Assembly (NCBI GenBank): GCA_000720805.1
Contig: JODI01000109.1
Span: 1-22,828 of the forward strand
Origin: Streptomyces violaceoruber
GTDB taxonomy: Bacteria > Actinomycetota > Actinomycetes > Streptomycetales > Streptomycetaceae
Reading direction: 5' to 3'
DNA: 22,828 bases
The position numbers were made by a program, and so were the translations under genes. Positions within the stretch are counted from its first letter, which is position 1; every line of letters begins with the position of its first letter. Positions 17,971-21,602 of this stretch are shown here, one piece after another. The notes below the pieces were generated by a model that saw nothing but the letters and a program-made list of their open reading frames with translations, ran no database searches and was not told the DNA's origin.

Positions 17971-18969
17971 ATGTCGAAGTACGGATCGTTTCCCGGTGCG
18001 CGCCCGCGGCGGCTGCGGACCACTCCTGTCATGCGGCGCATGGTCGCCGAGACCCGGCTGCACCCCGCTGACTTCATCCTCCCCGCGTTCGTGCGGGAAG
18101 GTGCCGCCGAGCCCGTGCCGATCGCGGCCATGCCCGGTGTCGTCCAGCACACCCGGGACAGTCTGAAGAAGGCAGCCGCCGAGGCCGTGGCCGCGGGGAT
18201 CTCCGGGATCATGCTGTTCGGGGTGCCGGAGGAGTCGAAGAAGGACGCGGTGGGGACGCCGGGGACCGATCCGGACGGAATTCTGCAGGTGGCCCTCCGT
18301 GATGTGCGGGCCGAGGTCGGCGACGATCTGTTGGTGATGTCCGACCTGTGTCTCGACGAGACGATCGATCACGGGCATTGCGGGGTGCTGGACGCTCAGG
18401 GGCGTGTCGACAACGACGCGACCCTGGAGCGGTACGCCGAGATGGCCCGGGTGCAGGCCGACGCCGGTGCGCACGTCGTCGGGCCCAGCGGGATGATGGA
18501 CGGGCAGATCGGCGTCGTCCGCGACGCCCTCGACCGGATAGGGCGCCAGGACGTCGCGATCCTCGCCTACACCGCGAAGTACGCGTCCGCCTTCTACGGG
18601 CCCTTCCGGGAGGCCGTCGGCTCGTCCCTCAAGGGAGACCGCAAGACGTACCAGCAGGACCCGGCGAACGCGCGGGAGTCCCTGCGGGAGTTGGCCCTGG
18701 ACCTGGAGGAGGGGGCCGACATGGTGATGGTGAAGCCGGCCGGGCCCTATTTGGACATTCTCGCGCGCGTCGCCGACGCCGTGGACGTGCCGGTCGCCGC
18801 CTACCAGATCTCCGGCGAGTACTCGATGATCGAGGCCGCCGCCGAGAAGGGCTGGATCGACCGGGACCGGGCGATCCTGGAGACGCTGACCGGCATCAAA
18901 CGGGCCGGCGCGCAGAACATCCTCACCTACTGGGCCACCGAGGTGGCCCAGCAGCTGAACGGTCAGTAG
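17971..18969 (+). CDS. hemB: Delta-aminolevulinic acid dehydratase (porphobilinogen synthase)
   Basis: A 332-residue enzyme condensing two 5-aminolevulinates to porphobilinogen. The Schiff-base lysines are K203 (YTAKYASAFYGPF) and K255 (MVMVKPAGPYLDI). The metal-site loop reads DLCLDETIDHGHCG, with Cys127 and Cys137 but Asp129 where zinc enzymes have the third Cys, so the site is intermediate between zinc (CxC...C) and magnesium (AxD...D) types. Residues 85-105 hold FGVPEESKKDAVGT, and DPDGILQVALRDVR follows. ATG 17971 fits the family start (RPRRLRTTPVMRRMVAET). It is separated from hemD by 156 bases with a strong hairpin, and its 3' end overlaps the convergent lipoprotein gene by seven bases. 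Confidence 0.96.
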   Translation: MSKYGSFPGARPRRLRTTPVMRRMVAETRLHPADFILPAFVREGAAEPVPIAAMPGVVQHTRDSLKKAAAEAVAAGISGIMLFGVPEESKKDAVGTPGTDPDGILQVALRDVRAEVGDDLLVMSDLCLDETIDHGHCGVLDAQGRVDNDATLERYAEMARVQADAGAHVVGPSGMMDGQIGVVRDALDRIGRQDVAILAYTAKYASAFYGPFREAVGSSLKGDRKTYQQDPANARESLRELALDLEEGADMVMVKPAGPYLDILARVADAVDVPVAAYQISGEYSMIEAAAEKGWIDRDRAILETLTGIKRAGAQNILTYWATEVAQQLNGQ

Positions 18970-19697
18970 GCGAGCGCGTCGCTCATCTCGCGCTGCCAGT
19001 AGGTCACCCGCAGCGAGCTGTCGTAGTACACGCCCTTGGCCGGCAGCGACGGAGTCGCGGAGGCGCCGCCGCTGCTGTTCGGGGTCACGCCCTGGAAGGC
19101 GACCGTCAGCCGGCGGCCGGTGGTGCCGCCGTCGCCGCTGCCGTCGGCTGACGCCAGCAGGACGCCCGCGTAGCCCGACTCGCCGGGGGCGAGGGTGGTC
19201 ACCGCCTGCGGCTTGGAGCCCTCGAAGGGCTGCGGCGCCCACTGCATCTCGTCGAAGCGGAGCACCGGGTAGTACGTGAGGTCGCAGAGCTTCGAGCCGG
19301 TGTTCTTGACGGTGATCAGCATGTGGTTGAGGGGCCGGGAGACCGGCTGGGCGGTGACGGTGGTGTTCGAGCCGTTGCACAGGACGCGGTTCTCGGGGGC
19401 GTTCGGGTCCGGGTCCGAGGTCTTGCGAGGGCCCGCTTCCGGGGCCGGCTTCCTGGCGGAGGCGGGGACCTTGCCGTTCGACGTGGCCGGCTTGCCCGGC
19501 GTGGTGGAGGTCGGGGCGGCGTCGGGGGTGCCCGTGGTGGAGGTGGGCGTTGCCGTCGGCCGGCCCGTGCTGGTGGTCGCCGTCGTTCGGGAGGCGCCCT
19601 CGTCCTTCGTTCCCGTCCCGTCCTGGCACGCCGTGAGGGCGAGGGCGGCGAGGGTGGCGCCGGTGGCGGCGATCAGGCGGATACGTCGTGCACGCAT
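18963..19697 (-). CDS. DUF4232-type secreted lipoprotein
   Basis: A 244-residue exported lipoprotein. The signal peptide is MRARRIRLIAATGATLAALA with the lipobox LTAC (Cys24). A Thr/Ser/Pro-rich linker of about 80 residues follows, then a C-terminal beta domain of the DUF4232 type (about 108-235). This domain starts RVLCNGSN, continues with NHMLITVKNTGSKLCDLTYYPVLRF, and has two Cys that may form a disulfide. The function of DUF4232 is unknown. GAGGAC eight bases before ATG 19697 is the ribosome-binding site. It diverges from the transmembrane HTH gene across 234 bases, and a truncated paralogue lies at 21226-21447. The seven-base overlap with the hemB 3' end leaves no room for a terminator between the two. 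Confidence 0.88.
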   Translation of the reverse strand: MRARRIRLIAATGATLAALALTACQDGTGTKDEGASRTTATTSTGRPTATPTSTTGTPDAAPTSTTPGKPATSNGKVPASARKPAPEAGPRKTSDPDPNAPENRVLCNGSNTTVTAQPVSRPLNHMLITVKNTGSKLCDLTYYPVLRFDEMQWAPQPFEGSKPQAVTTLAPGESGYAGVLLASADGSGDGGTTGRRLTVAFQGVTPNSSGGASATPSLPAKGVYYDSSLRVTYWQREMSDALAY

Positions 19698-19931
19698 GAC
19701 AGGTCCTCTTCCGAAAACAGTGGGTTACGGCAGGCCGCTCGACCGGTCGTCGGGAGCGGCGTGCTTGGATGACCACAGCTTGTGCGGTGATCCGTCCCGG
19801 CCGCCACCACCGGCGGGTGATCGGGGATGCTGGAACGCTGAAACGGGCTGTGGCCTGGGGGAACGAATCATCGCTGGAACGCGTGGATGGGATAGAGCGC
19901 GTTCACGGGATGCGTACGGGGAGGAAGAACG
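19698..19931. promoter_or_regulatory. Divergent control region of lipoprotein and HTH genes
   Basis: A 234-base shared upstream region. GAACGCG (19877-19883) and CGCGTTC (19898-19904) form a 7-bp inverted repeat with 14 bases between arms, 28 bases before the HTH start, a plausible autoregulatory operator. The block at 19767-19865 is clearly similar to 21501-21602, upstream of the second lipoprotein copy. The shared core CCACAGC(T/C)TGTG sits at 19773 and 21509. Confidence 0.55.
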
Positions 19932-21281: not shown

Positions 21282-21447
21282 CGGGTGGGGCGGTGTGGTG
21301 CGTCGAGGGCGGGGTGGAGGGCCGGGTCGTGGATGACGGGCCTTCGTCGCGCAGGCCCTCTCCGTCCTCGCACGCGGTGAGGGTGAGTGCCGCCAAAGCC
21401 ACCGTGGTCGCGGTGAGCAGCCTGAGACGGGTGGGGTGTGCGGGCAT
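21226..21447 (-). pseudogene. Truncated paralogue of the DUF4232 lipoprotein (73 aa)
   Basis: From ATG 21447, with GGAGAG six bases before it, this encodes 73 residues: a signal peptide and lipobox ending LTLTAC (Cys26), then EDGEGLRDEGPSSTT and a Thr/Pro linker, then a stop. The first 45 residues clearly match the full lipoprotein at 19697 (LAALALTACQDGTGTKDEG). The whole C-terminal DUF4232 domain is missing; the end reads antisense through the last 56 bases of the HTH gene. Its upstream DNA is also similar to that of the first copy. It may be a decayed duplicate, or a small expressed lipoprotein, since the ribosome-binding site and signal peptide are intact. Confidence 0.7.
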
Positions 21448-21500
21448 GAGCTCTCTCCGGGGGCGGGGTGGGCGTGCGTCAGGGAAGTCGCCGGGGTGTC

Positions 21501-21602
21501 GGATTGATCCACAGCCTGTGGGGTGAGGCGTCCCGGATGCCAGTGGTGGCGGGGGATTCGGGACGCCGGGTCGGTGGGACGGGCCGTGACCTGCGGGGAT
21601 GC
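21501..21602. repeat. Second copy of the divergent control block
   Basis: Aligns with 19767-19865 with short gaps; matching cores include CCACAGC(T/C)TGTG, GTCCCGG, ACGGG(C)TGTG-like segments and CTG(C/G)GGG(G)A. It holds the perfect inverted repeat CCACAG-C-CTGTGG (21509-21521) and GCGTCCCG/CGGGACGC (21528-21535, 21559-21566). Unlike the first copy, no HTH gene follows. Confidence 0.6.

Follow-up and report, generated by a model that had tools for sequence, protein, structure and literature searches.

Membrane-anchored XRE-type regulators, a shared control element and exported proteins in Streptomyces: a proposed link

Does the partial repeat beside a divergent gene pair of Streptomyces violaceoruber represent the remains of a duplication, or a working part of a larger regulatory system? 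The window, a stretch of 22,828 nucleotides, contained a DUF4232 lipoprotein gene (LIP) and a gene for a membrane-bound helix-turn-helix protein (HTH-TM), with a control element between them. The control element and the start of the lipoprotein gene appeared again at the 3' end of the HTH-TM gene, where the short gene LIP2 was located.

LIP (18963..19697, minus strand) matched PF14016 at residues 107-235 (E 5.3e-23; 82 bits, cut-off 27), which placed it in the DUF4232 family by Pfam. To our knowledge, this family has no assigned function, and a literature search for DUF4232 matched no paper. The lipobox cysteine of LIP was residue 24 (positions 19628-19626). Its mature N-terminal motif, CQDGTGTKDEGAS (19590..19628, minus strand), was a looser form of the LIP2 motif, as in the clade A lipoproteins described below.

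The HTH-TM gene (19932..21281, plus strand) encoded a regulator with a cytoplasmic HTH_31 domain (PF13560, residues 9-72, E 6.8e-16), one membrane helix (20325..20390, plus strand) and an outer domain. The helix was assigned by hydropathy (mean 2.37 over 19 residues from about residue 132) and was flanked on the inner side by RRRTR; the hydropathy scan gave no second segment above the same threshold. The outer part matched no Pfam family. For the outer domain (20619..21278, plus strand), AlphaFold2 predicted a beta-sandwich with a mean pLDDT of 89.8 and a pTM of 0.84 from 96 sequences. The gene descriptions in the initial annotation, a DUF4232 lipoprotein and a regulator with an HTH, one helix and an unassigned outer part, were in agreement with these results. 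The control element between the two genes (19765..19899, plus strand) matched model R1 at E 9.5e-27, being itself a row of the model's alignment.

LIP2 (21226..21447, minus strand) was an intact, conserved gene for a lipoprotein of 73 aa, and its open reading frame overlapped the 3' end of the HTH-TM gene by 56 bases. Its mature N-terminal motif was CEDGEGLRDEGPS (21334..21372, minus strand). A second control element was located upstream of LIP2 (21504..21636, plus strand; model R1, E 6.9e-21, also a row of the model's alignment). The S-adenosyl methyltransferase gene (21732..22634, plus strand; PF04672, E 2.6e-111) adjoined LIP2. The open reading frame at 17971..18969 (plus strand), which we take to be hemB, is the neighbour of LIP2 in other genomes and served as the marker gene in the comparisons. 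The layout was identical in another genome of the species (G203), with 97.3% DNA identity over 6792 bases.

The recurrence of the control block was confirmed by alignment. Positions 19767-19865 and 21501-21602 gave a local score of 243, compared with a mean of 115 (s.d. 12.9, maximum 178.5) for 1000 dinucleotide shuffles. The start of the lipoprotein gene with its upstream stretch scored 687, compared with a shuffle mean of 501 (s.d. 25, maximum 605.5). For two control stretches taken from the window, the z values against shuffles were 0.4 and -0.3. As had also been noted, the second copy contained neither the DUF4232 domain nor a matching HTH gene; LIP2 matched no Pfam family up to E 1, PF14016 included.

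The HTH-TM family had more than 3000 homologues, and a second complete divergent pair was present in the window's own genome (contig C171). Matches at E<=1e-20 were found in 86 of 101 Streptomyces genomes. Beyond the genus, a search of 15 genomes of the order found the outer domain in 11. From the 101-genome search, 30 loci plus 73 further stretches, a subset of all matches, were read. Loci without an HTH or without an outer domain (L038, L165, L166 and L172) were left out, and overlapping loci of one place were dropped before the tree was made. The 100 rows with both domains corresponded to 97 distinct loci (duplicates L020/L167, L025/L170 and L034/L173).

A divergent DUF4232 gene was present in 53 of the 100 rows. 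By tree clade, these were 33 of 37 rows in clade A (the window's), 19 of 20 in clade B, the branch of which had a support of 94/76, below the program's mark, and 1 of 43 in clade C. Two of the four misses in clade A were a single locus at a contig edge (L034/L173, genome G017), where the start of the lipoprotein was present. Clades A and B together had a divergent DUF4232 gene in 52 of 57 rows, so that the lipoprotein and HTH-TM genes formed a conserved unit, as the initial annotation had suggested, and the survey across Streptomyces extended the pair well past close relatives.

Among 26 examined loci without DUF4232 (clade C and a few others), seven had another exported protein in its position, and four more element sites showed a non-DUF4232 exported protein in the partner position of clade C. 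The best Pfam match of these clade C partners was a weak one to PknH_C (E 0.0018, under the cut-off). At three clade B loci (L035, L036 and L039), an apparent very small hydrophobic ORF was seen by eye between the lipoprotein and HTH genes.

LIP2 was then considered apart from the pair. A DNA search found it directly after hemB, with neither HTH nor DUF4232 beside it, in five genomes (G001, G007, G011, G013 and G049). A profile search found it intact in at least 15 of the 101 genomes, every one at the hemB locus, this count being a lower bound. In the 15 sequences from the same search, the start of the mature protein, C-x-D-G-x-G-[LVI]-R-D-E-G-P-[SA], had a pN/pS of 0.33 and the signal peptide 0.91, and the tails varied freely. 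Two strains of the window's species were identical in the first 44 residues of LIP2 and differed in the tails (73 and 77 aa).

A protein database contained 319 short LIP2-like proteins at E<=0.01; among the 120 of them that were listed the motif was invariant, for which the way of finding them accounts in part or in full. Among 66 named LIP2 loci, 65 had a readable ORF with the motif, which was invariant because the scan pattern selected for it, and hemB was near in 64. The mature part was 20-69 residues long in all 65. Of these, 41 had no adjoining pair, 16 were arranged as in the window and eight had LIP2 between hemB and the pair.

Among lipoproteins with a readable lipobox, the looser form of the motif occurred in 19 of 28 from clade A and in none of 18 from clade B. 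LIP2 thus goes with clade A. A pseudogene was considered for LIP2 and rejected on the intact reading frame in 15 genomes and the pN/pS of the motif. The initial annotation had called the second copy decayed. As judged from its sequence, LIP2 is not debris but an intact conserved gene, found at one locus in many species with a conserved motif. In one genome (L024/L078, G077), the full lipoprotein had CQAGGDDSG in place of CxDGxGxxDEG, and the adjoining short lipoprotein had the latter, as if the job of the motif had passed to LIP2.

The control element was modeled twice. The first HMM was made from the LIP2 block of the window and 15 pair regions; it matched control regions preceding HTH genes of all three clades (A, B and C), as well as 13 of 15 LIP2 loci. 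The second model had 140 positions and was made from 23 pair regions and eight LIP2 regions (31 rows). The core common to the target elements was GGGACGC-TGGAACG ... TGACCTG-GGAAACG ... CTGGAACGC ... GGGACG. Some of the TGGAACG sites present in the block of the pair were absent from the LIP2 block of the window.

The element preceded LIP2 in all 15 LIP2 genomes, of which eight were in the model's alignment and seven outside. In 19 of the 65 named loci, it was either weak or absent from the matches (E>0.01), namely seven of the 16 arranged as in the window, four of the eight with LIP2 between hemB and the pair, and eight of the 41 without a pair. When hemB-linked LIP2 sites were collected by the element (E<=1e-5), blind to the motif, the ORF was intact in 14 of 14, eight of which had helped to build the model.

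In the window's own genome, the 140-position model found the window pair, the second pair on C171, LIP2 and further sites. One of the latter (C171:1631-1760, E 2.9e-10) belonged to a third lipoprotein, DUF4232-like and without an HTH neighbour. At another, near a contig end (L178 488-602, G000:C57; E 2.5e-12), the element was followed by a 45-aa ORF alone, with a hydrophobic start and no lipobox. This C57 site is a better candidate than LIP2 for a truly decayed copy. A third site (L180 59-1411, G000:C24; E 2.3e-4) preceded an exported protein, which in L180 had GH25 and peptidoglycan-binding domains, and an upstream element before such an exported protein was present in three genomes (L180, L213 and L216). 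A weak element (L181 973-2572, G000:C133; E 0.002) was located between a divergent exported peptidoglycan-binding protein and an XRE-type HTH gene. The latter came from another family, and the layout may therefore extend beyond the HTH-TM family. In 14 more genomes, 12 of which were chosen for, or known to have, LIP2 or the pair, 32 sites were found at E<=0.001.

At E<=1e-5, the element was present in 77 of the 86 genomes with the HTH-TM family and in none of the 15 without it (two of these assigned by elimination), in counts that ignore phylogeny; the remaining nine of the 86 had the family without the element. Part of this co-occurrence is trivial, because some elements adjoin HTH genes. The HTH-TM family is the best candidate for the binder, because the element and the family were jointly present and absent.

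The genes next to the element were examined for export signals. An exported ORF on the lipoprotein side passed a strict filter at 33 of 38 sites, compared with 100 of 2000 random positions not matched for intergenic location. The 38 sites were 30 of the 32 above and eight chosen from 15 own-genome sites (one at E 0.21). The five misses were four known exported genes that failed the filter and the C57 45-aa ORF.

Because many of the 38 sites resembled the model's own pairs and LIP2 genes, a set of 34 further sites outside the known pairs and LIP2 genes, sorted by hand, was the better test. On the lipoprotein side, 25 of these had an exported ORF by the strict filter, to be compared again with the 100 of 2000 random positions, five more by a relaxed filter and two more by a DUF4232 match. 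At L338, the ORF passed by the strict filter was doubtful, with a DUF4232 match on the same side. Two sites, L315 (G093:C1:648124) and L327 (G073:C763:1119), had no exported gene on that side and were strong element matches. Five of the 34 adjoined an HTH domain or directly followed an HTH-TM gene (L320, L326, L341, L345 and L346). At L320 (G064:C1:615000-618500), the element was just downstream of an HTH-TM gene, in the place of LIP2, and preceded an exported beta/gamma-crystallin protein.

Pfam was applied to ten target proteins, which came from seven of these loci (34 or more in number) and from two in the window's own genome. Trypsin-like, beta/gamma-crystallin, FG-GAP, GH25, peptidoglycan-binding and DUF4232 domains were found, and three proteins were without a match. 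Targets unrelated to LIP (trypsin-like, beta/gamma-crystallin, FG-GAP and GH25) had the same element core. The orientation of the element to the exported gene was constant, mostly at 50-170 bases from its start. Since this orientation was the same with or without an HTH gene opposite, the element appeared to serve the exported gene.

We interpreted these results in terms of a one-component transmembrane regulator. The conserved unit, the element with its distribution and its orientation to exported genes, and the constraint on the LIP2 motif were established by sequence comparison. On this basis, membrane-anchored XRE regulators probably control exported proteins, including the partner lipoprotein and LIP2, through the shared element. 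The HTH-TM protein would bind, from the membrane, an element that spans about 100-140 bp and has repeated TGGAACG/GGGACG sites as its framework. Its targets would be its own divergent DUF4232 lipoprotein, LIP2 and more exported proteins elsewhere in the genome. Binding of the element by the HTH protein is fairly probable, and repeated sites over more than 70 bases would fit cooperative binding by a membrane-bound protein. That the protein mainly activates may be given an even chance, activation having been guessed from the length and position of the element module.

The origin of LIP2 would be the first portion of a LIP-type gene, taken along with the control element of that gene, and LIP2 would have been kept as a working short lipoprotein. 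The outer-face lipoprotein would most likely modulate the HTH-TM regulator through the outer beta-sandwich domain, a predicted fold that would be suited to contact with LIP or LIP2, and the clade A motif would be a possible contact with this domain. We put forward such direct contact by LIP or LIP2 only tentatively, at somewhat less than an even chance.

Other explanations of the repeat and the element were weighed against this one. If the pair had been duplicated in tandem and then decayed, LIP2 and its block would be debris, without a DUF4232 domain or a matching HTH gene and with some TGGAACG sites lost, much as seen. Debris would not be expected to stay intact at hemB in at least 15 of 101 genomes, to keep a motif with a pN/pS of 0.33, to retain its ORF at all 14 hemB-linked sites found by the element (eight of them used in the model), or to be identical over the first 44 residues in the two strains of the species. 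The debris reading is refuted as stated, and we give it hardly any weight. What stood of tandem duplication followed by loss was the shared ancestry of the repeat and the pair's control region; the decay did not stand, and duplication with loss may be how LIP2 originated. It is also improbable that the extra elements are mostly copies of pair control regions carried along with duplicated lipoprotein genes, with no common regulator today. Several HTH-less sites did precede LIP-related DUF4232 proteins, and the own-genome C57 site preceded only the 45-aa ORF, as such copies might; the same core in the same orientation before unrelated exported proteins (trypsin-like, crystallin, FG-GAP and GH25) argues against it.

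A more serious alternative, still unlikely in our judgement, is that the element is real and drives the exported genes, and that another binder (a two-component regulator, an ECF sigma factor or a soluble regulator) acts on it, the HTH-TM protein being no more than one of its targets. This would agree with an element that serves the exported gene whether or not an HTH gene is opposite. In four of the 15 LIP2 genomes (G013, G061, G091 and G097), LIP2 and its element remained, and every HTH-TM gene read (in G061 all matches but one, in G091 a part of the matches) was of clade C. Either the clade C proteins act in these genomes or something else does. In addition, GGAAC resembles the -35 box of the sigma-E promoters in the promoter list available from PMC6767563. 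Against a sigma factor, the sigma-E form GGAAC-N15-18-CGTC was present in one of the 31 aligned rows forward and in none reversed. Against any other binder, the element was found in none of the 15 genomes without the HTH-TM family.

If the membrane-anchored regulator does bind the element, a large unannotated family of more than 3000 homologues would gain a testable role, as would many DUF4232 lipoproteins of Streptomyces, and candidate targets would follow in each genome that bears the element. The case of LIP2 indicates that a debris-like gene can encode something conserved, and the LIP2 motif offers a concrete candidate for contact at the outer face. A bolder and rather doubtful extension is an undescribed envelope-signalling network of Streptomyces, in which membrane XRE regulators and their exported partners would read the outer face and control exported proteins through one long element. 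LIP2 would then be a lipid-anchored peptide signal, displaying about a dozen conserved residues on the membrane and determining the state of the clade A regulator.

Transcription regulators of the ToxR, TcpP and CadC type have an OmpR-type winged-helix DNA-binding domain. Such a winged helix was absent from the nine Pfam families matched by the HTH-TM protein up to E 1, which included HTH_31 and other XRE-like families. A search that left subscription journals mostly outside found no literature on the pair, the element or LIP2. What was known or proposed already is that transmembrane transcription regulators (TTRs) have partners, and that lipoproteins modulate envelope signalling. In TTRs such as ToxR/ToxS and TcpP/TcpH, as described in the available text of PMC10269533, a DNA-binding domain and a membrane helix are in one protein, with partner proteins in the known cases, and for some other regulators a table there lists possible neighbouring genes of the ToxS/TcpH kind. 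Neither XRE nor lipoprotein is mentioned in the main text of that paper. In Streptomyces, according to the available parts of PMC6767563 and PMC6593405, the lipoprotein CseA modulates envelope signalling, and AfsQ3 is proposed to do so.

With both a predicted DNA-binding domain (PF13560) and a predicted transmembrane region, the window's regulator fits the published TTR definition as given in the available text of PMC10269533. Like CseA and AfsQ3, as far as the accessible accounts go, LIP is an outer-face lipoprotein encoded with a regulatory system, and its action on the regulator is putative. Unlike those lipoproteins, which belong to two-component systems, its partner would be a one-component membrane regulator; the neighbours of the lipoproteins in the window were hemB, the HTH-TM gene and the methyltransferase gene, with no two-component system beside them. 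As with ToxR/ToxS, an exported partner is encoded beside the regulator (52 of 57 rows in clades A and B). Unlike ToxR/ToxS and TcpP/TcpH, the system of the window has an XRE-type HTH_31 domain, a divergent exported partner, a long element with many sites and a separate short lipoprotein.
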